From: Sciscionella marina DSM 45152
Lineage (GTDB): Bacteria; Actinomycetota; Actinomycetes; Mycobacteriales; Pseudonocardiaceae
Length of the DNA: 35,111 nt
Reading direction: 5' to 3'
NCBI RefSeq assembly: GCF_000379465.1
Contig: NZ_KB905411.1
Coordinates: forward strand, 1 to 35,111
The notes under the pieces are model-generated. The model was not told where the DNA came from and made no database searches. It saw nothing but the letters and a program-made list of their open reading frames with translations. The position numbers and the translations under genes are program-made. Positions within the stretch are counted from its first letter, which is position 1, and each line of letters opens with the position of its first letter. Below, piece by piece: positions 25,308 through 35,111 of this stretch.

Positions 25308-25772
25308 TCAGACCGGCGGTTCCTGAACGGTGTGCAGGCGTGCACCGGGATCTGCGCCTTCCGGCTCACTGTCCTCGGTGGACGTGCCTGGCAGTCGATT
25401 CTCATCGCCGCGGTCGATGGCCCCGGTCTGTTCGGTAATTCGTTCTTCGAGGGCATCGACGGTCTCCGTGGGCCGATTCCGCGGGTCTTCCGGGAGCCGG
25501 ACCGGTTCCTCGAGTCGTCGACGTACCTGCGCCAGAAAATTCTCGTCAGTTGTCGTGAGCCGCTCGAGATCGACGCTCTCCGGCAATTGCCCACCGGCCC
25601 CGTGTTCGGTCAGATACGCCACGGCGCACTCGACAACTCGTCGTGAGCTGTACCGCGAGCCCACCTGCTCGAACACGGAAGCACTCGCATACCAGTGCGA
25701 CACGGCACGTCCATACCGGACGATCGCGAACTCACCTTCTCCCAGGTCCTCGACGCGCAGTTCTTCCGGCAT
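25308..25772 (-). CDS. Uncharacterised small protein, paralog A (SigF-type promoter)
   Basis: The 154-residue protein has an N-terminal ~90-residue globular part (DLGEGEFAIVRYGRAVSHWY, then RRVVECAVAYLTEHG, LPESVDLERL, FLAQVRRRLEE) and an acidic, Pro/Thr/Glu-rich, probably disordered tail. No named family is recognised. The globular part aligns with the 93-residue product at 26264-26545 (RVVE..xYL.E...G..P..xDL..L...D..xL...RxRL). The ATG follows a perfect AAGGAGGTG, and a GTTT-N15-GGGTAC promoter lies 24 nt upstream. It diverges from csbD. Stress-related by context only. Confidence 0.75.
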   Translation of the reverse strand: MPEELRVEDLGEGEFAIVRYGRAVSHWYASASVFEQVGSRYSSRRVVECAVAYLTEHGAGGQLPESVDLERLTTTDENFLAQVRRRLEEPVRLPEDPRNRPTETVDALEERITEQTGAIDRGDENRLPGTSTEDSEPEGADPGARLHTVQEPPV

Positions 25773-25795: not shown

Positions 25796-25820
25796 GTACC
25801 CACGCCTCGGCGATCGAAAC
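25796..25820 (-). promoter_or_regulatory. SigF/SigB-type promoter of paralog A
   Basis: Minus-strand GTTT (25817-25820), 15-nt spacer, GGGTAC (25796-25801). Matches the actinobacterial SigF/SigB consensus GTTT-N14-16-GGGTAY. Confidence 0.75.
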
Positions 25821-25860
25821 ACGCAAGCATAGAACGACTACCTGTGGGTACTCCCTGTCT

Positions 25861-26034
25861 ATGGATGACGAGACAACGAACAAGGCAGAGGAATTGCAGG
25901 GCAAGGCCAAGGAAAAAGCAGGTGAAGTGACCGACAACGAGCAATGGCAGATGGAGGGCAAAGCACAGAAGACGAAGGGCAGCCTCAAACAGGCGGGTGA
26001 CAAATTGCGGAAGGCGTTGAAGCCCAAGCGTTAG
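25861..26034 (+). CDS. csbD: CsbD family stress protein
   Basis: The 57-residue, highly charged protein has the CsbD repeats: KAEELQGKAKEKAGEVTDN, then EGKAQKTKGSLKQAGDK. CsbD is a general-stress protein under SigB control in Bacillus; its molecular role is unknown. The ATG at 25861 has no ribosome site, but a GGGTAC box (25846-25851) ends 9 nt upstream, so the transcript may be leaderless from a SigF-type promoter. The -35 there (GCAT) is poor. It is divergent from paralog A and convergent with paralog B. Confidence 0.85.
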   Translation: MDDETTNKAEELQGKAKEKAGEVTDNEQWQMEGKAQKTKGSLKQAGDKLRKALKPKR

Positions 26035-26112
26035 CGGTGTTCTCAGTCTTCCTGCTGTGCGCCTCGGTCCGTTCGGCCGAGTTCCGGCGGAGTCCTTGCC
26101 GCAGGTACGGAC

Positions 26113-26130
26113 GAGGCCGGGCTCGGCCTC
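26113..26130. terminator. Hairpin between csbD and convergent paralog B
   Basis: GAGGCCG (26113-26119), GGCT loop, CGGCCTC (26124-26130), followed by TGTT. Perfect 7-bp stem in the 229-nt gap between the two stop codons. Nothing else is recognised in that gap. Confidence 0.6.
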
Positions 26131-26263
26131 TGTTCACGACCGCCGTGAGCTCCCGCTTCGGTCCCCTGCTCTCCGATATCTCGTGGTTCGACGTCCCACA
26201 ATCCTTGATGCGCAGACAACGACACACGCGGTCACACGGAAGGGAAAGCCCCCGGGCAGGACC

Positions 26264-26545
26264 TCAACCGGCCAGTCGTTTCCGTAACGCGTTCAGATAG
26301 CGGGCGTCGTGTTCGCGCAGCTCGTCCAGATCGATGTCGTGCGGGATAGAGCCGGCCGAGCGGCGTTCCAGCAGGTATCGCATCGTCTGTTCGACGACAC
26401 GTGTCGCCGCGGCTCCGGGAAGGAGAAGGTCATCGAACAATTCCCCGCTCATGGTCACACGATGGTGCGTGGTGGCCATCCCACGCCGGATCGTGACCGC
26501 ACACGAATCGCCGTTGAGCCGCTTCACGTCGAGCTGTTCGGTCAT
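26264..26545 (-). CDS. Uncharacterised small protein, paralog B (SigF-type promoter)
   Basis: The 93-residue protein has the same fold region as paralog A: ATRVVEQTMRYLLERRSAG, IPHDIDLDELREHDARYL and the terminal LRKRLAG. It lacks A's acidic tail, so it defines the minimal domain. No known family is recognised; predicted mostly helical in the second half. The ATG at 26545 is the first Met in the conserved part, with GGAGGG about 12 nt upstream; a GTG at 26605 is a longer alternative. A perfect GTTT-N16-GGGTAT promoter lies at 26633-26658. Confidence 0.72.
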   Translation of the reverse strand: MTEQLDVKRLNGDSCAVTIRRGMATTHHRVTMSGELFDDLLLPGAAATRVVEQTMRYLLERRSAGSIPHDIDLDELREHDARYLNALRKRLAG

Positions 26546-26632
26546 CTCGGGTCTCGTCCCTCCATTGCACGTCTCGGCCCGCCGTCTTCCACGCGTGCCG
26601 ATCACCGGCCGCGGTTGTCGTCAGGTGATCAC

Positions 26633-26658
26633 ATACCCGCGGCCGGCGCGGTGCAAAC
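26633..26658 (-). promoter_or_regulatory. SigF/SigB-type promoter of paralog B
   Basis: Minus-strand GTTT (26655-26658), 16-nt spacer, GGGTAT (26633-26638). Both boxes match the consensus. It overlaps nothing coding; the PASTA gene stop lies at 26673 upstream. Confidence 0.78.
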
Positions 26659-26672
26659 GCCTCAGCGGTCGG

Positions 26673-26939
26673 CTAGGTCATCGGTGCCGTGGCAGTGGAG
26701 AGATCCGGGTCGAGGACTTCCTGCGCGGCTCGACCGTTATCCGACCACAGCGTCACGTCATTCCCGATATTGACCGAGACTCCGGGCGCGGGATCCTGCT
26801 GAATGATGGTGCCGTCGATCGGCTCGGGAGCATGCTGCGGTCCGCGAGGCGACAAGCCGGCAGCCCGGACCGCGCCACACGCCTCGACAGCGCCCAAACC
26901 CGTGACGTCGGGGACCTCGACTCTGTCATCGTGGGACAT
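26673..26939 (-). CDS. Small stand-alone PASTA-domain protein
   Basis: The 88-residue protein is essentially one PASTA domain: VEVPDVTGLGAVEACGAVRAAGLSP and GTIIQQDPAPGVSVNIGNDVTLW. PASTA domains normally form the extracellular part of Ser/Thr kinases and penicillin-binding proteins, where they bind peptidoglycan fragments. Here there is no signal peptide, membrane helix or kinase, so it appears cytosolic. The tail contains ALDP-like sequence without features. The ATG at 26939 lacks a clear ribosome site. Confidence 0.78.
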   Translation of the reverse strand: MSHDDRVEVPDVTGLGAVEACGAVRAAGLSPRGPQHAPEPIDGTIIQQDPAPGVSVNIGNDVTLWSDNGRAAQEVLDPDLSTATAPMT

Positions 26940-27022
26940 ATGACGACGGTAGATGATCCATTTCGGTTCGGAAACCCGTACGCAGCAATCGGGTCCGGGA
27001 CCTCGCCGTCATACCGTACCGG

Positions 27023-27853
27023 TCACGGCACGTGTGTCCCGTCTCCGATCTGCTCCTGGCGAAGCCCTTTCCACAGTTGAGCGGCAATCTCCCGGGCGCG
27101 CTCGTCCACATGGACCACGCTCTGGTTCACGGGTTTGTCAGCCGGTACCTGTCCGATGTGTTCCACCAAGGCGGTTGCCAGTTCACGGAGTTTGAGGTTC
27201 ACCTCCTGGCTCACCGCGCGGAGAACATCCCAGGCGGCATTGGGATCGCAGTTTCGTATCCCCATGATGACGCCCTTCGCCTGTTCGATGGCCGCCCGCG
27301 AGGCGAGCGCGTCCAGAACACGCTGTGACTGCTGCTGATTGCGCTCGGCGATTCCGGCCATCGTGACCGCGCTGGTCACCAACGGCTCGTGGCGGGCGAG
27401 CGTGGCGACGGTTCTCTCGTTCGCGGGACCATCGAGGTAGACCGACAAGACCATAATCCCGTCCTCGTCCCAGATCGAGGGCATCGCGGCGGCGCCCCGA
27501 ACCCGGGCGATGACGTCAAGCTGGGTGGCCTCCACCCTGTCCCGCAGCCGTTCGAATCTCAGATGCGGCCAGCGTTCGTCGCACCAGATGTCGGCCGTCG
27601 CGAGCGGCCCCTCCCCCAACGCGGCCAGGATCGAAGGTCCCCACAATTTCCCGGTCGTCACCGGAGTCAACGATTCTCCGACACCGCTGGCCGCAAGTAC
27701 TCTCAGTCGCCCTCCGCCTCGGTTGCGGGCAGGATGGGCAACACTGACGGCAGCGCCGAGGTCACCGGCGACATCGCAGCGTAGGCCGGTCAGCACGCGG
27801 GACAACAGGGCAGCCAGCGATGTGGCTACAGGCTCCAAGGGCGTCGAATTCAT
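27023..27853 (-). CDS. GAF-ANTAR transcription antitermination regulator
   Basis: The 276-residue protein has an N-terminal GAF-like sensor (about 1-165; GGGRLRVLAASGVGESL, WPHLRFERLRDRVE, SIWDEDGIMVLSVYLDG). A C-terminal ANTAR domain lies at about 185-240 (VLDALASRAAIEQAKGVIMG, then AWDVLRAVSQEVNLKLRELA). ANTAR domains bind dual-hexaloop RNA to prevent termination. Such GAF-ANTAR proteins are abundant in actinomycetes and respond to redox or small ligands. The ATG at 27853 has GGAATGG upstream. No dual hexaloop was searched for successfully nearby. Confidence 0.88.
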   Translation of the reverse strand: MNSTPLEPVATSLAALLSRVLTGLRCDVAGDLGAAVSVAHPARNRGGGRLRVLAASGVGESLTPVTTGKLWGPSILAALGEGPLATADIWCDERWPHLRFERLRDRVEATQLDVIARVRGAAAMPSIWDEDGIMVLSVYLDGPANERTVATLARHEPLVTSAVTMAGIAERNQQQSQRVLDALASRAAIEQAKGVIMGIRNCDPNAAWDVLRAVSQEVNLKLRELATALVEHIGQVPADKPVNQSVVHVDERAREIAAQLWKGLRQEQIGDGTHVP

Positions 27854-28131
27854 GCCATTCCACAGACGATCTCACGGACCACATGGAGCTTCGATGAAAC
27901 CCCACAGGGCCACTCCGTCTTCGTGGAAGCCAGGTGCCCGTGCCCCGGGCGCGGCACGAATTGCTCGCACGCGCCCCAGTGCGGTGTCGCGCCCGCCCTT
28001 GAAGTGTCGATACGATCAATAGCGTCGATAAGAAAAAGCATAACGAAGCAGCAACGAATTTGCCAGCCCGCTTTCAGGTGACCAGCTTGTCTACCGAGCC
28101 TGGTTTGCCGGTAAACACCCGAAAAAATCGG

Positions 28132-28503
28132 TCATCCAGGCGGAACCGTGACCGTGGCGTGCGGGTGTGCGGCTCCGTCGGCCGCCAGCTCCGAACCAGC
28201 TGTCATGGCCACCACGCGAGCAGCCGCCACGCAGGCCACCAACGACTCGAGTGGCGTCGTCACCGCCGCGCCGGGCCCGCGGTAGCTCAGTGGAGCGGTC
28301 AGCACGAGCTCCCGGCCACCCGTATGCGGCGGGTCGGGGTTGAACGTCAGCAGCTGCCCCACGAGACAGCTGCCGTCATCGAGCTCCAGCCCGACTCGGT
28401 GCGCACCGGCATTGCTGCCTGGATTTCGCGCTTTCGTCGGCACGCCGGCACCAGTGCGCCACCATCTATGGCGACGCGCCCAACCGCTGCCCATCAGCAC
28501 CAC
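28132..28503 (-). CDS. DUF6338-like small protein
   Basis: The roughly 123-residue protein has a beta-rich core (AHRVGLELDDGSCLVGQLLT, then GRELVLTAPLSYRGPG and VAAARVVAMTAG). It resembles the C-terminal domain of DUF6338 proteins, where a D/S-G-S/T-x-V-x-G strand and a (R)ELxL strand are usual; the N-terminal membrane part of that family is missing. GGAGG at 28508-28512 supports one of the GTG starts at 28503 or 28500; an ATG is at 28494. It lies 97 nt downstream of the encapsulin gene, same strand. Function unknown. Confidence 0.5.
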   Translation of the reverse strand: MVLMGSGWARRHRWWRTGAGVPTKARNPGSNAGAHRVGLELDDGSCLVGQLLTFNPDPPHTGGRELVLTAPLSYRGPGAAVTTPLESLVACVAAARVVAMTAGSELAADGAAHPHATVTVPPG

Positions 28504-28600
28504 TTTCACCTCCACGATCTGCGGTCACGACTTCCTGCGATTCCTGTCGAGGGATAACCCGTTTCACGACTGCCGAAACCCGCGCGAACGGTACGAGCAC

Positions 28601-29416
28601 CTATTCCCTGGCCAGCGCCACGGCGGCCGATCGTTCGACGACCCGTATGCAGAAGTTCTCCTCGAAATAGAATCGCACGAAGTCCCGGTCATGTCCTTCG
28701 TATCCGATGGAGATGTCCTGTCCGACATCGAACAGGAAGTTTCCCGCACCGAGGCCCAGCACGACCGCCACCTCGATCCCCGGCGCCCGCACGACCTTAC
28801 CGCCGCCCAGGATGCGGCGCAGGTGATCGAGAACCGGATATCCTCCTTGTTCCGCCGCCGCGAGAATATCCATGTGATCCCGCGGCCCGACCGCCAAGGC
28901 ATACGGTCCCGGGACTCCGGCATCCCGGAGTGTGTTCACCGCGAGAGCCGTCGATTTCGGGTAGTTCTGCGGATCGCTGCCGAGCGGGACGGGCCGATGC
29001 GGACTGGCCGCTGTCATGCCGGTGAAACCGGCCTCGCGCCACCCATGGAACACCGCGTGGTTCTCCAGCCGGGCCAAATGCAGTGCCGCCGCGTCCAGCG
29101 CGTCCAGATCGAGATCACCCGCGCCACGCTCGGCGTCATCGAGTTCGGACCTGTTGACGGCGAACGGAAGGCGCACCTCGGCGAGTTCGAGCACCTTTCG
29201 CCGGTGCAGCTCGATGTCACCCCGGTTCTGGTGCTCAGGTTCGAGAACGCGCTTACGGCCCAGTCCAGTGGCCGAGTGTTCCCAACCATGCGGGCCCGAC
29301 CAGTCGACCAGCCGCCGCCCCGCCAGGTGCACCGTGAACTGGTCCTTGGCCTCCTCCTCGAGTTTGTCCCATGCCGCTTGCGGTATCGGCGCGAGCTCAC
29401 GCAGCAGATGGTTCAT
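28601..29416 (-). CDS. Family 1 encapsulin shell protein
   Basis: The 271-residue protein has the HK97-fold encapsulin (linocin M18/CFP29) signature: N-terminal MNHLLRELAPIPQAAWDKLE, GRRLVDWSGPHGWEHSATGLG, a P-domain with LPFAVNRSELDDAERGA, and the A-domain and C-terminal SIGYEGHDRDFVRFYFEENF. Length is normal for the family. It assembles into an icosahedral protein nanocompartment in the cytoplasm. The ATG overlaps the hemerythrin cargo gene stop by 4 nt, so shell and cargo are translationally coupled. Co-location with SigF-type promoters implies that it is made during general stress. Confidence 0.93.
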   Translation of the reverse strand: MNHLLRELAPIPQAAWDKLEEEAKDQFTVHLAGRRLVDWSGPHGWEHSATGLGRKRVLEPEHQNRGDIELHRRKVLELAEVRLPFAVNRSELDDAERGAGDLDLDALDAAALHLARLENHAVFHGWREAGFTGMTAASPHRPVPLGSDPQNYPKSTALAVNTLRDAGVPGPYALAVGPRDHMDILAAAEQGGYPVLDHLRRILGGGKVVRAPGIEVAVVLGLGAGNFLFDVGQDISIGYEGHDRDFVRFYFEENFCIRVVERSAAVALARE

Positions 29417-29970
29417 CCGTTTCGCCTCCCATCGAGCGGACCCAGTCCGAGTGAACCGTCTCCGGCCCCTTCGGCCTCGACCGATGCGAGGTACCTGTTC
29501 GGGGCGATATCGCTCGTGTCGAGCCCGGCGGCGGCTGGATGCTCCTGTTTGAACGCGGCGAACCGAGCGCCCAGATCGGCGCGTAGGCCAGGATCCGCGT
29601 GTCTGCGGAAATCGGCGAGCGCGCCGTCCTCCTCCTCCGCCATGTGTTCACTGTTCTCCAGCCGTGCCCTGCGAACCGCACTACTCCACGGTGCGCTGCC
29701 CACCGGATAGCTATCTGCCTCGTGGACCGCGTCTCTGATCTGATTATGATCATCGACCGCATCAACGGTCTCGTCCTCGGCATCGGAGCCACGGTGTACC
29801 AGTTCGGGATAGAAGATCCGCTCCTCGGCCACGGCATGCAGATCCAGCAGTGCCGAAAGCGGCCGCCAAATCTTCGCCAGCTCCTCCGGCGTGTCCACCT
29901 CGTCGAGCGCGGCGAAGCGCCTGCGGAATTCCTGATGATCGTCGAGTATCAGTTCGGTGATATCGGGCAT
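29413..29970 (-). CDS. Hemerythrin-like (HHE) encapsulin cargo protein
   Basis: The roughly 185-residue protein begins MPDITELILDDHQEFRRRFA and has HHE helices with iron ligands: DDHQEF, LDLHAVAEERIFYPEL, DDHNQIRDAV and NSEHMAEEEDG. The C-terminus ends with GDGSLGLGPLDGRRNG, which matches the encapsulin cargo-loading peptide pattern (D/G-SLG-[I/L]-G-x-L). Hemerythrin cargos bind O2 or react with NO/peroxide at a di-iron site. The ATG at 29970 is chosen: a SigF-type -10 ends 9 nt upstream, leaving a 2-3 nt or no leader, which fits the missing ribosome site. A TTG at 29976 is the alternative. Confidence 0.9.
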   Translation of the reverse strand: MPDITELILDDHQEFRRRFAALDEVDTPEELAKIWRPLSALLDLHAVAEERIFYPELVHRGSDAEDETVDAVDDHNQIRDAVHEADSYPVGSAPWSSAVRRARLENSEHMAEEEDGALADFRRHADPGLRADLGARFAAFKQEHPAAAGLDTSDIAPNRYLASVEAEGAGDGSLGLGPLDGRRNG

Positions 29971-29979
29971 GACCAAGCA

Positions 29980-30004
29980 CTACCCGATTTCCTCGCCGGG
30001 ACAC
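29980..30004 (-). promoter_or_regulatory. Probable SigF/SigB-type promoter of the encapsulin operon
   Basis: Minus-strand GTGT (30001-30004), 15-nt spacer, GGGTAG (29980-29985). One mismatch in each box against GTTT/GGGTAT. The weakest of the SigF-type set, but correctly placed. Confidence 0.5.
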
Positions 30005-30018
30005 ATCCCGCGCTCGGG

Positions 30019-30402
30019 TCACCCGGCGACACTGACCAGCTGTTCGTAGTCGGCGGGCAACTGATCGAGGACCTCCTCGAACTCGCCGGTCGAAACGGCT
30101 TCTGCGAGAACACCGAATACCGCGCGAACATGCACCCGAAGCTGCTCACCGGTGCGGCCCATCGCCTCGCGCTGAGCCACCCTTCCGAGAAACTCCACGG
30201 CTCCGAACCGTTGCCCTTGGTCCGCCTCGATCAGCGAACGGCGCAGCTCTTCGGGCAGATGATCGGCAAGACGTCCGGCCTGCGCACCTGTCAGACGCTG
30301 GCCCAGCACCGCCGCTACGCTCTGTACGAGCGCTTCGGCCTCCACCTTGTTCACCGGACCACCGCCAGCTCGCACCCGGTCCACGATCTCGTCATACCGC
30401 AC
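30019..30402 (-). CDS. DUF2267 family protein
   Basis: The 127-residue protein is one DUF2267 domain: VRYDEIVDRVRAGGG, EAEALVQSVAAVLGQRLTGAQAGRLADHLPEELRR, the FGAVEFLGRVAQREAMG turn and VFGVLAEAVSTGEFEEVLDQLPADYEQLV. The family is helical, of unknown function, and widespread near stress genes. The GTG at 30402 is used: GAGGA lies 7 nt upstream, family members start with this same RYDE sequence, and the longer ATG at 30447 overlaps the -10 box of a perfect SigF-type promoter. It lies just upstream of the encapsulin operon promoter and may read through into it. Confidence 0.87.
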   Translation of the reverse strand: MRYDEIVDRVRAGGGPVNKVEAEALVQSVAAVLGQRLTGAQAGRLADHLPEELRRSLIEADQGQRFGAVEFLGRVAQREAMGRTGEQLRVHVRAVFGVLAEAVSTGEFEEVLDQLPADYEQLVSVAG

Positions 30403-30445
30403 TGGGAATCCTCGTCGGCCGTACTGAATGTATTCGGCTGCAGGC

Positions 30446-30471
30446 ATACCCCGATCAGCGGGGAGCGAAAC
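30446..30471 (-). promoter_or_regulatory. SigF/SigB-type promoter of the DUF2267 gene
   Basis: Minus-strand GTTT (30468-30471), 16-nt spacer, GGGTAT (30446-30451). Perfect in both boxes. It decides the start codon of the gene at 30402. Confidence 0.8.
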
Positions 30472-30664
30472 GCGGGTCGATGACATCAACCACACCGAAC
30501 TCCACGTGATATCTACGAAGGCCACTTGACCGCCGAGCCACGAGCCGCACCCTTGCCAAGGCTCGCGGACCGGCGTCGCGGAGACGGGTCGGCAGGTGGA
30601 CCGCGCAGATCCCGGCGACGATGTTCTTGATTCCCCGGCACGTCTCCCCTTCGCTGAGCTCGGC

Positions 30665-31138
30665 TCACACGTCCCCGGGCGGCGAGGTCGACCGCTGCGG
30701 ATGGCGGTTCTGCCCGGCGAGAAGCGCCATAGCCAGGAGAACGACCGCGATCGCCAGGTGCAACCAGTTATCGGGATCGTTGAGCGCGAGAAGATTCGCA
30801 TCCGCACCGTGCCCGGCGAGCAGCCCGTAGCAATAGAGCAGCAGATAAATCAGGCCGACGGTGATCAGCAGGCCATGGGCCAGTTTCGATGTCCTGGACA
30901 CGGCGATGAGTGCGATACCGAACGCCACGAACAGAAAATTCCGCGCAACCGTGACCGAGAAGGTGTCGAACAGGAGCGCGCTCGGTCCGTGACCGACCAG
31001 CTGGAGCAGGTGATACTCGGTCGTCGCGCCGGGTACGAAACCCAGTATCCCGATCAGGAGAAGCACAAGACCAGTAGCGAACGCGACGTACTGCACTGGT
31101 GGGCGCCGCTCGGACGCGAATTCTGTCCCGCCAGGCAT
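30665..31138 (-). CDS. DUF4383 membrane protein
   Basis: The 157-residue protein has four membrane helices (about residues 17-36, 58-82, 90-112, 124-142). It has the DUF4383 pattern: GFVPGATTEYHLLQLVGHGPSALLFDTFSVTVARN between helices 1 and 2, and NDPDNWLHLAIAVVLLA before the last. The NxxDNxLHL motif is the family hallmark. Function unknown; common in actinobacterial stress regions. The ATG at 31138 follows GAGGAGG. A perfect-35 SigF-type promoter lies 57 nt upstream. The 263 nt downstream of its stop (30403-30664) hold only the DUF2267 promoter. Confidence 0.88.
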   Translation of the reverse strand: MPGGTEFASERRPPVQYVAFATGLVLLLIGILGFVPGATTEYHLLQLVGHGPSALLFDTFSVTVARNFLFVAFGIALIAVSRTSKLAHGLLITVGLIYLLLYCYGLLAGHGADANLLALNDPDNWLHLAIAVVLLAMALLAGQNRHPQRSTSPPGDV

Positions 31139-31194
31139 CTCGCCTCCTCTGGAATATCCCATCACCTGCCGCGAACCGCGACACATGCATTCGG

Positions 31195-31220
31195 CTACCC
31201 GAAATGCCATTCGGCGAAAC
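31195..31220 (-). promoter_or_regulatory. SigF/SigB-type promoter of the DUF4383 gene
   Basis: Minus-strand GTTT (31217-31220), 16-nt spacer, GGGTAG (31195-31200). One mismatch at the last -10 base. Confidence 0.7.
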
Positions 31221-31319
31221 CCCGCGAGAGGCCGCTACCCGGACAGTGCGCACGCACCGCCTTCTGCCGGATATGTCGCCAGCGAGAGGGACGGCCACCA
31301 GGAGAAGTGAGAAGTGACC

Positions 31320-31510
31320 ATGACCGGGCCGGATCCCACAACGGCCAACACAGACCTGCCCCGAATCGCGATCGTCACCGGTGCCGACTCCGGCATCACC
31401 GTCAATGCGATGCCCCATGGGGCATCGCGACACCGATGACCGCTCCGGAAGACACCGAGCCGCACGAGCGGCCCCGTCCCGGCTGGCGACTACCTGATCG
31501 AGCGCCCCGG
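31320..31510 (+). pseudogene. Internally deleted and frameshifted SDR gene
   Basis: ATG 31320 follows a ribosome-site-like GGAGAAG and reads MTGPDPTTANTDLPRIAIVT then GADSGI, an SDR N-terminus with the TGADSGIG nucleotide site. The next residues are TVNAMPHG, which is the GITVNA.(A)PG segment normally found some 150 residues later. After a 1-nt shift the frame continues ATPMTAPEDTEPHERPRPGW, matching the GEIATPMTGQED...RPG tail of the same SDR subfamily. About 140 central residues are thus missing, and the reading frame ends at TGA 31437. From there to 31597 I see no gene. Confidence 0.7.
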
Positions 31511-31597
31511 TGTAGCTTTCCCCGCCTGGCGTGTCGTCTTGTGGAAAGAATCGAGTCTCGCCGAAGGAACCGTCGGAGTTCACGGTCTCCGGCCCAC

Positions 31598-32014
31598 CTA
31601 TTCGCCGGAATCGAGCCACCGACGGCTGTCGAACTCGGCATCGACGATCGCCTGCGCCTGTATCGAGGACACGAACCGGTAAGTGGCGTCCACGAATTCG
31701 CCGAGCTGACCGGCATCGGTGACGAATTCCGCCTGCCCGCTCGGCGAATACAGCTCGACGGCGACCGCCGATTCGCCGTCGACTGGGCGGACTCGCACCT
31801 CCCCTTCTCCCGAAGGAGTGTGCAGGCCAGTGGCCAGCAATGTCCTCGCCACCGTCCACACGGTTCTCTCGTTTCTCCTGACGTGGAAGGAAAGCCGCAC
31901 GGCCCACGGATCACCGCTGGTGTACTGGAATTCGACCTCGACAGGAATTGCCGTGCCGTCCGACAACAGCATGTCGAAGATCGCGGTGTCGGTGATTGAA
32001 GAACTATCGATCAC
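31598..32014 (-). CDS. SsgA-like sporulation/cell-division regulator
   Basis: The 138-residue protein has the SALP family layout: LLSDGTAIPVEVEFQYTSGDPWAVRLSFH, VWTVARTLLATGLHTPSGEGEVRVRP, SPSGQAEFVTDAGQLGEFVDATYRFV. SsgA-like proteins control septum placement and peptidoglycan remodelling in sporulating actinomycetes by recruiting or timing division and wall enzymes. The GTG at 32014 has GGGAG upstream and matches the family N-terminus. It is driven by a perfect SigF-type promoter, linking wall remodelling with stress signalling here. It is transcribed away from the sigF operon. Confidence 0.88.
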   Translation of the reverse strand: MIDSSSITDTAIFDMLLSDGTAIPVEVEFQYTSGDPWAVRLSFHVRRNERTVWTVARTLLATGLHTPSGEGEVRVRPVDGESAVAVELYSPSGQAEFVTDAGQLGEFVDATYRFVSSIQAQAIVDAEFDSRRWLDSGE

Positions 32015-32047
32015 GACTCGCTCCCGGTTGTCGCTTCTGGTTTCTCC

Positions 32048-32079
32048 GTGATACCCGTGCGACTGTGATACCCGTGCGA
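32048..32079. repeat. 15-bp direct repeat containing a duplicated GGGTAT box
   Basis: GTGATACCCGTGCGA occurs at 32048-32062 and again at 32065-32079. Each copy contains a minus-strand GGGTAT. Only the upstream copy has a correctly spaced GTTT. Confidence 0.85.
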
Positions 32080-32092
32080 ATGTGTGACAAAC
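32068..32092 (-). promoter_or_regulatory. SigF/SigB-type promoter of the SsgA-like gene
   Basis: Minus-strand GTTT (32089-32092), 15-nt spacer, GGGTAT (32068-32073): perfect in both boxes. The -10 box is duplicated downstream at 32051-32056. Confidence 0.8.
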
Positions 32093-32433
32093 GCGCGTCT
32101 TTGGGGCCACCGCATGGATCAAGGAACGGCACACCGACCGGGGGCGGCGGCGCGCTGTCCTTGCTGGTTCCGAGGGCCGACCTCTCGTGCCGGCGCGGAG
32201 CCCTCAGTAGTACACGACAAGCGTTCAGCGGCAGCGGGACTTGAACGGTAGCGCCCCCCACGAGGTGCGCCGGGAGCCGTTTCCGAGTAGTGACCCGACC
32301 GAGTTCGCGTCGCCGGAGTCGGCTTGCCGCTGGATCCTGCAGTACGAGCTATCCACCACCCATAGCGTCTAGACCGATGCGGTGGCCCGGATTCTTGTGA
32401 GTACGCCCAATCGAGAAGACGGATTCGACCGAG
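32093..32433. other. Intergenic stretch without a recognised gene
   Basis: Frames open on both strands give Arg/Pro-rich or irregular products with no ribosome site and no family resemblance. It separates the divergent ssgA-like and sigF transcription units. Confidence 0.5.
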
Positions 32434-32459
32434 GTTTCCGTCCCCGGCTTCCGGGGTAG
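32434..32459 (+). promoter_or_regulatory. SigF/SigB-type promoter upstream of the sigF operon
   Basis: Plus-strand GTTT (32434-32437; context AGGTTTCC), 16-nt spacer, GGGTAG (32454-32459). A CCCCGG-CTT-CCGGGG inverted repeat (32442-32456) covers the end of the spacer and the start of the -10. It is about 410 nt before the anti-sigma gene, so it implies a long leader and sigma autoregulation. Confidence 0.6.
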
Positions 32460-32645
32460 TCGTCACGTGGCAATGACGAATCCAGGACCATGAGGTGCGA
32501 GGACGGCGTCTTCTCGGCCTTGCCGACGGGGCGACACTCGTGTTAAGGCTGAACGAAAGTACTCCGCACGCAGGCTGATGTGCACCTGCGTCGCGGTACC
32601 GGAATCGGTCCGGATGACAGCCGCAGCTGCGACGAATAGGGTACG

Positions 32646-32873
32646 ATGAAGGCGAATTTCCCAGAGACCGACTGGCGGACGACGTCAGTTCGACTACGAC
32701 GCACCGGCCCCATGTCGCGGTCCGCTCCCGTATCGACGGTTATCGATACAGCGACGGCCATCCCGGCTGGGCACTCCGAGTACAACGGTGGAAGAAAACC
32801 GGTCAGGCTTGTGCCCGTCGGAGGGAGTTCCACCGGAGACGTCGACGATACGCGGGACCGGAGCGGCACATGA
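32646..32873 (+). CDS. Possible small protein coupled to the anti-sigma gene
   Basis: A 75-codon frame from ATG 32646 ends TGA at 32871-32873, overlapping the anti-sigma start as ATGA. That overlap is the main argument for it. Against it: no ribosome site, third-position GC clearly lower than in neighbours, and no recognisable family. It could instead be part of a long untranslated leader of the sigF operon. Confidence 0.3.
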   Translation: MKANFPETDWRTTSVRLRRTGPMSRSAPVSTVIDTATAIPAGHSEYNGGRKPVRLVPVGGSSTGDVDDTRDRSGT

Positions 32874-33295
32874 TCAGCGATCAGCCAGCAGAAAAACCAT
32901 CGGTTGCCGATGACGGTGTCGTCGAGGTGCATACGAGCATCGACTCCGCCCAGCTCGCCGTACTACGCAATGTGGCTGCGACCTTGACGATGGATGCTGG
33001 TTTCACCGTGGACAGCGTCGAGGACGCCCGGCTGCTCGTCGACGAGGTCTGCTCGACTCTCATCCGCAACGCGGAGCGCGGAGCTCAGCTGTCGTGCCGG
33101 TTCCGGGCCGATGACCGCTTCTATCTCCACGCGCAGGCCACCGCAAGCCCGGATGCCGTTGTCGACCGTTCTTCGTGGTCGTGGCGCATCATGTCAACGC
33201 TCGCGGACACCCTCATCAGCTGGACGAACGCGAATCCGGGGCAGCCGACGACGCTGCACATCGAGGCGACCAAGGCCTCTGACGGATGCCCATGA
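32870..33295 (+). CDS. Anti-sigma factor, UsfX/RsbW-like ATP-binding protein
   Basis: The 141-residue protein has the GHKL/HATPase fold used by SpoIIAB-type anti-sigma factors. The VEDARLLVDEVCSTLIRNA helix carries the N-box, in the degenerate form also seen in M. tuberculosis UsfX (LRLAVDEA..TLI). A WSWRIMSTLADTLISW segment is near the C-terminus. It should bind and inhibit the sigma factor encoded next and be freed by an anti-anti-sigma factor, which is not in this window. The start at 32870 has no strong ribosome site. Its stop overlaps the sigma gene. Confidence 0.85.
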   Translation: MISDQPAEKPSVADDGVVEVHTSIDSAQLAVLRNVAATLTMDAGFTVDSVEDARLLVDEVCSTLIRNAERGAQLSCRFRADDRFYLHAQATASPDAVVDRSSWSWRIMSTLADTLISWTNANPGQPTTLHIEATKASDGCP

Positions 33296-34095
33296 CCGAA
33301 GGCCCTGACCACCTCGGCCTGTCGAAACAGGCCGAGCACCAGGAGTACGCTCAGTTCGCGGAGGACTTCCACGAATTCGCTGCGCTCTCACCAGAGAATC
33401 CGCGGTATGAGCGCCTGCGGGAGAAGCTGGTCCGCGAGCACATGCCCCTCGCTGAGCACATCGCGATGCGGTTCCGCCACCGCGGTGTGCAGCTCGAGGA
33501 CCTGCGTCAGGTCGCCATGCTCGGCCTGATCAACGCGGTGGACCGGTTCGAACCCGATCGCGGGAACGACTTCCTCGCGTTCGCTGTGCCCACGATCATG
33601 GGCGAGGTGCGGCGGTACTTTCGCGACGCGGGCTGGGCCATGCGGGTGCCGCGCAGGCTGCAGGAACTGCATCTGAATCTCGGTAAAGCGATCGACGAGC
33701 TGTCCCAGCGCACCGGTCGCGCACCGCGGGCGGACGAACTTGCCGAGTACCTTGGGATCGAACTCGGCGAGGTGCGCAGGGGCCTGGAGGCGGGCAGTGC
33801 TTACCGGGCCGATTCCCTCAACAGCCCGGTCGGCGGGACCACCGAGTCCGACAGCCAGGCCGTCAGCGACACCATCGGCGAGCAGGACACCAACATCGAG
33901 GACGTCGAGCTGCGCGAAACGCTACAGCCGCTGCTGGCCGACCTGCCGGAACGTGAACGGCGAATCCTGACCCTGCGATTCTTCGGCAATCTCACCCAAT
34001 CGGAAATCGCGCGCAAGATCGGGCTTTCCCAAATGCACGTCTCCAGATTGCTCGCACAGAGTCTCAAACAGCTGCGCGAGCGGATCTACGGTTGA
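33286..34095 (+). CDS. RNA polymerase sigma factor, SigF/SigB/SigG family
   Basis: The 269-residue group 3 sigma factor has region 2 (LVREHMPLAEHIAMRFRHRGVQLEDLRQVAMLGLINAVDRFEPDRGNDFLAFAVPTIMGEVRRYFRD) at about 45-115. Region 3 is at about 120-180 (VPRRLQELHLNLGKAIDELSQRTGRAPRADELAEYLGI), and region 4 at 210-265 (LPERERRILTLRFFGNLTQSEIARKIGLSQMHVSRLLAQSLKQLRERI). It directs general-stress transcription from GTTT-N14-16-GGGTAY promoters, six of which lie within 8 kb. Start at 33286, or 33292 where ATGA overlaps the anti-sigma stop. Confidence 0.92.
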   Translation: MPMTEGPDHLGLSKQAEHQEYAQFAEDFHEFAALSPENPRYERLREKLVREHMPLAEHIAMRFRHRGVQLEDLRQVAMLGLINAVDRFEPDRGNDFLAFAVPTIMGEVRRYFRDAGWAMRVPRRLQELHLNLGKAIDELSQRTGRAPRADELAEYLGIELGEVRRGLEAGSAYRADSLNSPVGGTTESDSQAVSDTIGEQDTNIEDVELRETLQPLLADLPERERRILTLRFFGNLTQSEIARKIGLSQMHVSRLLAQSLKQLRERIYG

Positions 34096-34128
34096 CCGGC
34101 CTGGCTCCCGACACTTCCACAGCCGGTC
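34094..34128 (+). terminator. Possible terminator after sigF
   Basis: GACCGGC (34094-34100) pairs with GCCGGTC (34122-34128) across a 21-nt loop, starting within the stop codon. Long loop and no U-tract make it weak. Confidence 0.35.
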
Positions 34129-34288
34129 ACGGTCCCGGCAGTTCGTACACGGCGAACGCCCGTCCTATCACCGAAGCACATATCGACGCCAGTCATGGCG
34201 TCGCCAACGATGTGCCTGCCCGCGAACCGTACATCGCGCCCACGCTCGACTATCGACGCTGAATCCGGCTTACCGCACAGGAGTAGTC

Positions 34289-34561
34289 ATGTCCGAACAC
34301 CAGACCCCGGCCAGCGAACACGGGGAACACCTCGAACTCGACGAGAACCGCTCGGCCGCGCAGCCGCTCGACTGGCCACGAGACGACCCGCGCAGGGACG
34401 ACCCTGAACACGACACCCGGGATTCCGCTGATTCCGAGACGACGGCTTTTCCGCCAGAGGCATCGGTTCCGCCGGGAGAACCCGAGGAAGGCGCTCTGCA
34501 TCTGGAGACCGACCGGCACCTGGAGACCGACCGCCCGGAAAGCGAAGGTTCAGCGGACTGA
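34289..34561 (+). CDS. Small acidic, disordered hypothetical protein
   Basis: The 90-residue product is rich in Asp, Glu, Pro and His with no hydrophobic core, so probably intrinsically disordered. The C-terminal HLETDRHLETDRPE is encoded by a 14-bp direct repeat at 34502-34515 and 34520-34533. The ATG at 34289 follows CAGGAG, which supports translation. It lies 193 nt after sigF in the same direction and may be expressed with it. No family recognised. Confidence 0.6.
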   Translation: MSEHQTPASEHGEHLELDENRSAAQPLDWPRDDPRRDDPEHDTRDSADSETTAFPPEASVPPGEPEEGALHLETDRHLETDRPESEGSAD

Positions 34562-34596
34562 CCGGCGCACCGCGAGCAGCCCTGGCTGTCGCGATC

Positions 34597-35040
34597 TCAG
34601 TCGGCGATACCGTTGTTCTGGTCGACGAAGGTCTGGCGTTCGGGTGTCACCCAGAGCATCACCCGCTCGCTCTTGATGGCCTCCGGCGGATAGGGCTTAC
34701 CGGTGTAGTCCTGCGCGAGCTCGTCGACGTGTCCGCGCGCCCGGTCACCGCCGGTGGTCTCGCCGAGGACTCCCCGGATCTCCGCGTACCGGTACGGATC
34801 CTGCTCGTCGCGGATCATCAGGGCGATGCGCCCGTCGCGGCGGGCGTTGAGGTATTTCGCCCGGTGCGTCTCGGTGTTCACCACGAGTCGGCCGTCCTCG
34901 ACTCCGACCCACACCGGTTGGTTCTGGATGCGCCCACTGGGCAGCATCGTGGCCACGGCGGCGAAGTTAGCGCCACCGGCCAGCCGCTCGGTCTCCGGCA
35001 GCAGTTTCGTGCCATTGGCTGTCTTGACCGCCATCGTCAT
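34597..35040 (-). CDS. PPOX-class F420/FMN-dependent split-barrel protein
   Basis: The 147-residue protein has the pyridoxamine-oxidase-like split barrel: NFAAVATMLPSGRIQNQPVWVGVEDGRLVVNTETHRAKYLNARRDGRIALMI, then YRYAEIRGVLGETTGG and HVDELAQDYTGKPYP. This is the TIGR03618/F420-dependent type common in actinobacteria, which reduces or binds small substrates with F420 or FMN. The ATG at 35040 follows GAAGGAG. It converges on the acidic small protein gene, 35 nt apart. The promoter is in the last 70 nt of the window; I see no GGGTA box there. Confidence 0.87.
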   Translation of the reverse strand: MTMAVKTANGTKLLPETERLAGGANFAAVATMLPSGRIQNQPVWVGVEDGRLVVNTETHRAKYLNARRDGRIALMIRDEQDPYRYAEIRGVLGETTGGDRARGHVDELAQDYTGKPYPPEAIKSERVMLWVTPERQTFVDQNNGIAD

Positions 35041-35111
35041 GTTCTCCTTCGCCGAAAGGGAATCCTTCACGCACGTCCAGACCGAGCGCGGCGAGTAGTC
35101 GCGCACAATCC

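Follow-up and report, generated by a model that had tools for sequence, protein, structure and literature searches.

The 35,111-nucleotide stretch of Sciscionella marina DSM 45152 analysed here (the window) carries sigF, a gene for a sigma factor of the SigB/F/G family, and, just upstream of it, rsbW, the gene for a putative anti-sigma factor. An initial annotation had placed several promoters of the SigF type near this pair. The locus raises the questions of whether these promoters form a genuine cluster, which sigma factor reads them, and whether such a cluster is unusual. We consider it very probable that the window represents that end of a large Sciscionella SigF regulon island at which sigF lies, and that SigF uses the surrounding GTTT-N15/16-GGGTA promoters. 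The cluster is real, conserved and useful for naming targets, and it is ordinary in kind.

SigF-type promoters and their probable sigma factor in the window

The window and the whole genome were scanned with the same strict pattern, GTTT-N14-17-GGGTA. The window contained six matches with spacers of 15 or 16, between 25797 and 32458, and no others; each lay at the position given for it in the initial annotation, and all were oriented toward a gene start. One precedes the gene called paralog A (GTTT-N15-GGGTAC at 25797–25820(−), with GGGTA ending 25 nt before the start codon; gene at 25308–25772(−), 154 aa, no Pfam family), and another precedes paralog B (GTTT-N16-GGGTAT at 26634–26658(−), 89 nt; gene at 26264–26545(−), 93 aa), which is 32% identical to paralog A. 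A DUF2267 protein gene (30019–30402(−); PF10025, 99.9 bits) has GTTT-N16-GGGTAT at 30447–30471(−), about 44 nt from a GTG start that was assigned by hand behind a GAGGA ribosome site. The DUF4383 protein gene (30665–31138(−); PF14325, 102.5 bits for the longer reading to 31210) has GTTT-N16-GGGTAG at 31196–31220(−), 58 nt from its start, and the SsgA-like protein gene (31598–32014(−); PF04686, 91.3 bits for the reading from 32041) has GTTT-N15-GGGTAT at 32069–32092(−), at 55 nt. The sixth site, GTTT-N16-GGGTAG at 32434–32458(+), faces the rsbW–sigF operon. It had been described as preceding this operon; the site is there, but it is not adjacent, being 412 nt from the rsbW start.

The same sites stood out when the window was scored with a matrix built from 54 SigF-dependent promoters of Mycobacterium smegmatis taken from a table of PMC4694148. 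The top six matches were exactly the six strict sites, with scores of 18.9–19.0 out of a possible 19.05. They were followed by a palindrome at 1776–1801 (17.0 on both strands) and, in ninth place, by a site before an encapsulin operon (15.6). At a matrix threshold of 10 there were 32 matches in the window, 17 of them within 25–33 kb, and shuffled sequences gave 13.8 per whole window; outside the cluster, the window is near background at lower thresholds. The palindrome, GTTTCCC...GGGAAA, lies at the opposite end of the window from the cluster.

Could the six sites have arisen by chance in a GC-rich genome and drawn attention through their accidental proximity? The strict pattern matched 70 times in the genome (86 contigs, 8.54 Mb), and the same pattern read backwards was itself found 26 times, which counts for chance and against the cluster. 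In 100 dinucleotide shuffles of the window, however, the mean was 0.20 sites and the maximum one. The window makes up nearly all of contig C32 (35,302 bases), for which the genome rate predicts 0.29 sites, compared to the six found (Poisson p = 6e-7). The density is thus far from that of random genome segments, the comparison proposed in the initial annotation. These controls refute coincidence, and the sites are conserved between species and genera (see below), leaving this explanation with next to no credibility. Three of the 70 genome matches are identical copies of one repeat (on contigs C36, C43 and C64). A looser pattern, GKTT...GGGWAB, gave 409 genome matches and 105 when reversed, and was not used further.

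The genome encodes a single SigB/F/G sigma factor above the TIGR02980 cut-off of 234.35 bits, the product of the window's own sigF (33286–34095(+); 293.8 bits). Five weaker matches reach 33–137 bits. These raise the alternative that another sigma factor of the same genome reads the sites, and SigB homologues do cross-recognise promoters in Streptomyces coelicolor, as described in PMC8346170. However, all five fall well below the cut-off, while SigF is indicated both by the site at its own operon and by the match to its M. smegmatis matrix, so we regard another reader as very improbable. What speaks against a strict naming is that the window sigma reaches 344.6 bits with the NCBI SigF model NF005514, its best-scoring model, where the cut-off is 372; by its sequence it is a SigB/F/G member predicted to work like SigF, and not a member by NF005514.

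The anti-sigma gene (32870–33295(+)) overlaps sigF by 10 nt. A profile of five sequences, the window protein and four relatives, matched solved anti-sigma-F RsbW structures (8ih8_C, E = 9e-23; 8jzt_B, E = 1e-22), identifying the protein as RsbW/UsfX-type. Its match to the Pfam family HATPase_c_2 was 21.2 bits, below the gathering score of 27.4, and a structure model with a mean predicted local distance difference test score of 69 was not used as evidence. The description of a SigF-type sigma factor with its anti-sigma factor amid clustered promoters was thus borne out by the TIGR02980 match, the RsbW profile and the site counts.

We infer the regulatory circuit from this arrangement. RsbW, encoded just upstream, would hold SigF until a stress signal frees it, and SigF–RNA polymerase would then start at the nearby GTTT-N15/16-GGGTA promoters. 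The rsbW–sigF operon is probably autoregulated through the site at 32434–32458, and its place among the targets would give positive feedback. Other targets would be paralogs A and B, the DUF2267, DUF4383 and SsgA-like genes, and further genes in adjoining parts of the island; a hemerythrin-loaded encapsulin would be reached through a GTGT variant of the promoter.

Between the promoter and rsbW lies a long 5' leader (32459–32869(+)). Within it, a block at about 32616–32680 that includes GGGTACGATGAAGG and holds GAATAGGGTACGATGAAGG is near-identical in the two Sciscionella species amid diverged sequence. By analogy with M. smegmatis, which has such a promoter just before rsbW, this block could be a second, SigF-independent promoter. 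An open frame at 32646–32873 shows little constraint (ratio of nonsynonymous to synonymous substitution rates, 0.73) and matches no Pfam family, and was rejected as chaB. In M. smegmatis, chaB lies between the SigF promoter and rsbW, according to the operon description in PMC7693655, whereas in S. marina that place is taken by the 411-nt leader, where the search for a family gave none. A 110-aa gene before rsbW–sigF in a complete chromosome from another genus of the same family (G084; L166:8743–9075) was likewise dropped as a ChaB candidate, the only Pfam match being Rho_N below its cut-off.

Conservation of the promoters between species and genera

The best locus for the sigma protein in a scan of GTDB genomes, which returned 22 loci, was that of Sciscionella sediminilitoris SE31 (locus L024, on contig C131 of genome G001), with 97% identity. 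The DNA of the region is 83–87% identical between the two species. Five of the six window promoters have aligned partners in S. sediminilitoris: C114:20211 for paralog A, C114:20995 for paralog B, and C131:3792, C131:4672 and C131:7771 for the DUF4383, SsgA-like and rsbW promoters, respectively (all in G001). All 45 motif bases (nine each) are identical. The spacers of the four equally long pairs are identical at 48 of 62 bases; at that rate, the probability of full motif identity would be 0.774^45 = 1e-5. The paralog B spacer is 16 here and 15 in the sister species (GTTT-N15-GGGTAT). Both lengths also occur among the SigF promoters of M. smegmatis in the table of PMC4694148. The DUF2267 promoter has no aligned partner, since that stretch lacks a counterpart on C131, but a DUF2267 gene on contig C155 of the sister genome has a strict site of its own. 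At the SsgA-like promoter, positions 32048–32079 form a tandem repeat of TCGCACGGGTATCAC, which is present as a single copy in the sister species.

To place these observations in the family, 100 genomes of Pseudonocardiaceae were examined, both Sciscionella included, and all 100 encode a SigB/F/G sigma factor above the cut-off. Forty of the other 98, from 38 genera, were picked by hand, mostly omitting cases at contig edges, and a stretch of up to 20 kb around the best-scoring sigma gene was scanned in each, with the expectation taken from each genome's own site rate. These stretches held 46 strict sites against 4.6 expected, and the reversed control gave one. At least one strict site was found near sigF in 26 of the 40. 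An rsbW match lay within the same stretch in 39 of the 40, and its upstream region had a strict site in 12 of these 39 and a relaxed one in 20, with none in the reversed controls (0/39). As a baseline, 40 of all 703 genes in the stretches had a strict and 67 a relaxed site, and none of the 65 genes in four 20-kb control stretches had one.

The density of the Sciscionella cluster is less widely shared. The two species have 6 and 7 strict sites near sigF (although the window includes only one sigF flank in full), and stand out among the sampled relatives, which range from 0 to 5 with 38 of 40 having 0–2. Since 14 relatives had no strict site around sigF and only two had three or more (G008 with three, G016 with five), dense clustering near sigF is not general, and this weighs against our reading. 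The resulting comparison set, with dense sites near sigF in Sciscionella, G016 and G084 and sparse ones in most relatives examined, could help to show whether regulons collect at their sigma genes, and for what reason.

Two target families were also traced at loci away from sigF. DUF4383 was present in 51 of 60 genomes, and 30 loci were returned, none from Sciscionella. A strict site lay upstream in 12 of the 30, and a strict or one-mismatch site in 19, with none in the reversed controls (0/30). DUF2267 was present in 39 of 60 genomes; of 30 loci, 8 without a tblastn match were dropped and 22 were kept, including two from Sciscionella. A one-mismatch GTGT-N15/16-GGGTA site was found at 8 of the 20 loci from outside Sciscionella, and reversed controls gave none (0/22). 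Several observations detract from these two results: four site matches upstream of DUF4383 genes were on the opposite strand, the single strict DUF2267 site among the loci kept was that of Sciscionella, more than a quarter of the DUF2267 loci (8/30) had been dropped, two of the eight positives came from one genus, and the DUF2267 copy on S. marina contig C35 (L158) has no site. Several M. smegmatis SigF promoters in the table of PMC4694148 use GTGT as their −35 element, and GTGT looks like a usable −35 at these loci as well.

The shared promoter that had been proposed for the DUF4383, DUF2267 and SsgA-like genes and paralogs A and B therefore has footprints between species, extending between genera for DUF4383 and DUF2267, as it does for rsbW. 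This allows a promoter-based assignment to one stress sigma factor for DUF4383 and DUF2267 (across genera) and for the SsgA-like gene and the hemerythrin–encapsulin operon (in two species). The stress role suggested for the DUF proteins is predicted from their promoters.

The SsgA-like gene invites a different view, namely that the sigma factor, like some Streptomyces SigB homologues, acts mainly in development (sporulation or aerial growth), with the SsgA-like gene as the telling target and stress secondary. SsgA-family genes on both C32 and C35 have a strict site, and S. coelicolor SigH reportedly drives ssgB. The S. coelicolor SigB homologues also use GTTT/GGGTA-like promoters, as described in PMC8346170. 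However, the remaining targets mostly encode hemerythrin, oxidase, redox and DUF proteins and not division proteins, and in M. smegmatis the targets of SigF react to stress and to a block of respiration, according to the accounts in PMC4694148 and PMC7693655. The three SsgA genes near sigF in the relatives have no site (0/3), which also tells against the SsgA-like gene as a general SigF target. A mainly developmental sigma factor is therefore unlikely, although the SsgA-like gene itself may have a role in development.

The larger island and its known counterparts

The promoter-rich region extends beyond the interval at 25.8–32.5 kb. Strict sites are also dense on contigs C27 (5 in 45.7 kb) and C31 (7 in 37.9 kb), compared to six in the 35.3 kb of C32, as well as on C53 (3 in 10.3 kb) and in the first 33 kb of C35 (4). 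Together, these stretches, from five contigs that were chosen for looking dense, contain 25 of the 70 sites in about 162 kb. When the sister contigs C114 (4 sites), C131 (8, with sigF) and C49 (10) were laid on C32, C53 and C35, they ran end to end: the end of C114 and the start of C131 meet at C32 26951/26950, and the ends of C131 and C49 are 460 bases apart on C53. The sister species thus has 22 of its 69 sites in about 93 kb on three contigs. An 86-base sequence is common to the right ends of both C32 and C53 and the left end of C35, and this repeat is the probable cause of the assembly break. C53 is inferred to precede C35 from their order in the sister genome; C27 and C31 may be parts of the same island as C32. 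The continuity of the island is weakened by two facts. No end overlap of at least 20 bases was found among the sister contigs, so that their order rests on synteny, and the S. marina island itself is divided among several contigs, with partial support for their order.

Contig C53 (L007) also bears on how the island arose. A duplicate corresponding to window positions 30663–35111 includes diverged copies of the DUF4383, SsgA-like and 34173–35111 stretches (81, 79 and 95% identical, respectively). The DUF4383 copy keeps a site; the strict sites on C53 include none at the SsgA copy. Together with paralogs A and B, this is what would be expected if the clustering were a by-product of local duplication and rearrangement, with the SigF promoter and its gene copied together and no selection for closeness to sigF. 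However, the sites precede unrelated genes (SsgA-like, DUF2267, DUF4383 and the sigF operon here; selD, an oxidase subunit and phosphoketolase elsewhere), and some genes of C27, C31, C32, C53 and C35 recur in two SigF-site clusters of G084, while none recur in two G084 control stretches. Duplication can add sites, yet it leaves the mixed gene set unexplained, and as the origin of the clustering we consider it rather doubtful.

G084 provides one comparison for a regulon island. Its chromosome has 9 strict sites in 1759604–1794682 around a sigF, and a second cluster of 8 in 4771597–4791702. Some of the genes resemble those of C27, C31, C32 and C53 (for example, 69% and 73% identical proteins). 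G084 differs in that the second cluster is 3 Mb away and that its genome has three SigB/F/G matches, where S. marina has one above the cut-off. In G084, 20 neighbouring sites were less than 10 kb apart, where simulations gave 5.2 (at most 16), and a 35-kb span contained up to 8 sites (simulated maximum 6). G013 was weaker, with 15 against 4.9 simulated (largest 13) and 5 per 35 kb, equal to the simulated maximum. Spacing in both genomes was compared with random placement only. Clustering of SigF promoters thus recurs, sometimes at sigF and sometimes apart from it.

A sigF-centred cluster is also known from M. smegmatis. By our count from PMC4694148, 27 loci besides sigF (MSMEG_1804) between MSMEG_1758 and MSMEG_1802 are lower in a sigF deletion. 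As in Sciscionella, an rsbW–sigF operon with an upstream SigF promoter lies amid many SigF-dependent genes (MSMEG_1758–1804), and the M. smegmatis consensus, GTTT-N14-19-GGGTA in the same source, is alike. Many close promoters are the shared feature, with 6 in the window and 7 in L024. The M. smegmatis neighbours as listed in PMC4694148, many of them called hypothetical, include none named as encapsulin, SsgA-like or selenocysteine genes. The premise of the initial annotation that stress sigma regulons are usually dispersed, so that clustering would be exceptional, was therefore not upheld, given the 27 loci by sigF in M. smegmatis and the two clusters of G084. Streptomyces coelicolor, for its part, shares the promoter type and has nine SigB homologues according to PMC8346170, where S. 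marina has one SigB/F/G factor above the cut-off. Our literature search found no SigF study of Pseudonocardiaceae or Sciscionella.

The hemerythrin–encapsulin operon and other genes of the island

Downstream of the DUF2267 gene, the window encodes a hemerythrin-domain protein (29413–29970(−); PF01814, 52 bits, cut-off 25.3) whose gene overlaps the start of a family 1 encapsulin shell protein gene (28601–29416(−); NF041155, 281.5 bits, cut-off 100). The weaker site that had been noted before this operon was recovered as GTGT-N15-GGGTAG at 29981–30004(−), and it is kept in S. sediminilitoris as GTGT-N16-GGGTAG. It is supported by the GTGT sites at DUF2267 loci and by the GTGT promoters of M. smegmatis. 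Encapsulin genes were found in 14 of the 100 genomes, and 12 of the 16 loci returned had a hemerythrin match (one a fragment), so the pair occurs again in other genera. At locus L189, a strict site precedes the hemerythrin start by about 28 nt; at L184 and L186 there is just GTGT...GGGCA. L183 lacks a hemerythrin match, but a strict site lies 557 nt upstream of its encapsulin gene. At the other hemerythrin starts, no such GGGTA site was among the upstream matches listed. Evidence for this operon is thinner than for DUF4383. The M. smegmatis hemerythrin genes MSMEG_2415 and MSMEG_6212 are SigF-dependent and have such sites, according to the tables of PMC4694148.

The hemerythrin-domain protein is probably the encapsulin cargo, and its C-terminal end, ...GDGSLGLGPLDGRRNG, resembles a cargo-loading peptide. 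Hemerythrin-loaded family 1 encapsulins are a known kind. The present operon is like them in having the hemerythrin gene directly before the encapsulin gene, with overlapping frames here, and differs in its conserved SigF-type promoter. A literature search linking SigF with encapsulin and hemerythrin found nothing, nor did one linking SigF with DUF4383.

Elsewhere in the island, several genes have a strict site 11–92 nt upstream. On C53, these include subunit I of an aa3-type cytochrome oxidase (NF050116, 946 bits), possibly a spare copy. Contig C27 has a strict site 55 nt before selD (partner G001:C114:10154); downstream of selD lie selA, selB and a formate dehydrogenase gene with an in-frame UGA at the selenocysteine position (NQARVUHSST); this cluster occupies positions 2800–10267 of L002 (G000:C27:20001–40000). 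Both the oxidase site and the selD site recur in the sister genome, upstream of genes with COX1 and AIRS Pfam domains, respectively, the latter expected for SelD. Further strict sites precede a phosphoketolase gene, which stands before an acetate kinase gene lacking the first part of the model, an F420-dependent oxidoreductase gene on C31, and a gene on C27 resembling pyridine-nucleotide oxidoreductases, below the model's cut-off.

These genes suggest, tentatively, a physiological role. Since loss of the aa3 oxidase or a block of respiration induces SigF in M. smegmatis, as described in PMC7693655, it is possible that Pseudonocardiaceae keep the SigF regulon as chromosomal islands and that the Sciscionella island is a kit for respiratory arrest, a reading drawn entirely from promoter position. 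If so, SigF would be freed when respiration stalls and would induce the hemerythrin-loaded encapsulin along with alternative routes for electrons and ATP.

Several minor features complete the picture. Paralog B had no NCBIfam match, and its longer reading (26264–26605) had no Pfam match. A GTTT-N15-GGGTT sequence at 28556–28579(−) was rejected as a promoter, its −10 element being altered in the sister species, and a promoter for the ANTAR gene (27023–27853) was rejected because the closest match to the matrix (27648) is intragenic. No site was seen in the alignment upstream of the PASTA gene, where the sister contig ends, and the window had no known RNA at the Rfam gathering score and no tRNA. 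Divergent from paralog A is a gene for a CsbD-like protein (25861–26034(+); PF05532, 54.9 bits). The stretch between them is well kept in the sister species, and a conserved GGGTAC (25846–25851) lies 10 nt before the CsbD start, with no GTTT at the right distance. Finally, a gene for a SigK-like extracytoplasmic function sigma factor, scoring below the SigK model cut-off, has a strict site upstream both on C31 (L004, 14337–15035) and in G084 (L168, 17618–18313). Its presence in two genera makes a sigma cascade possible.

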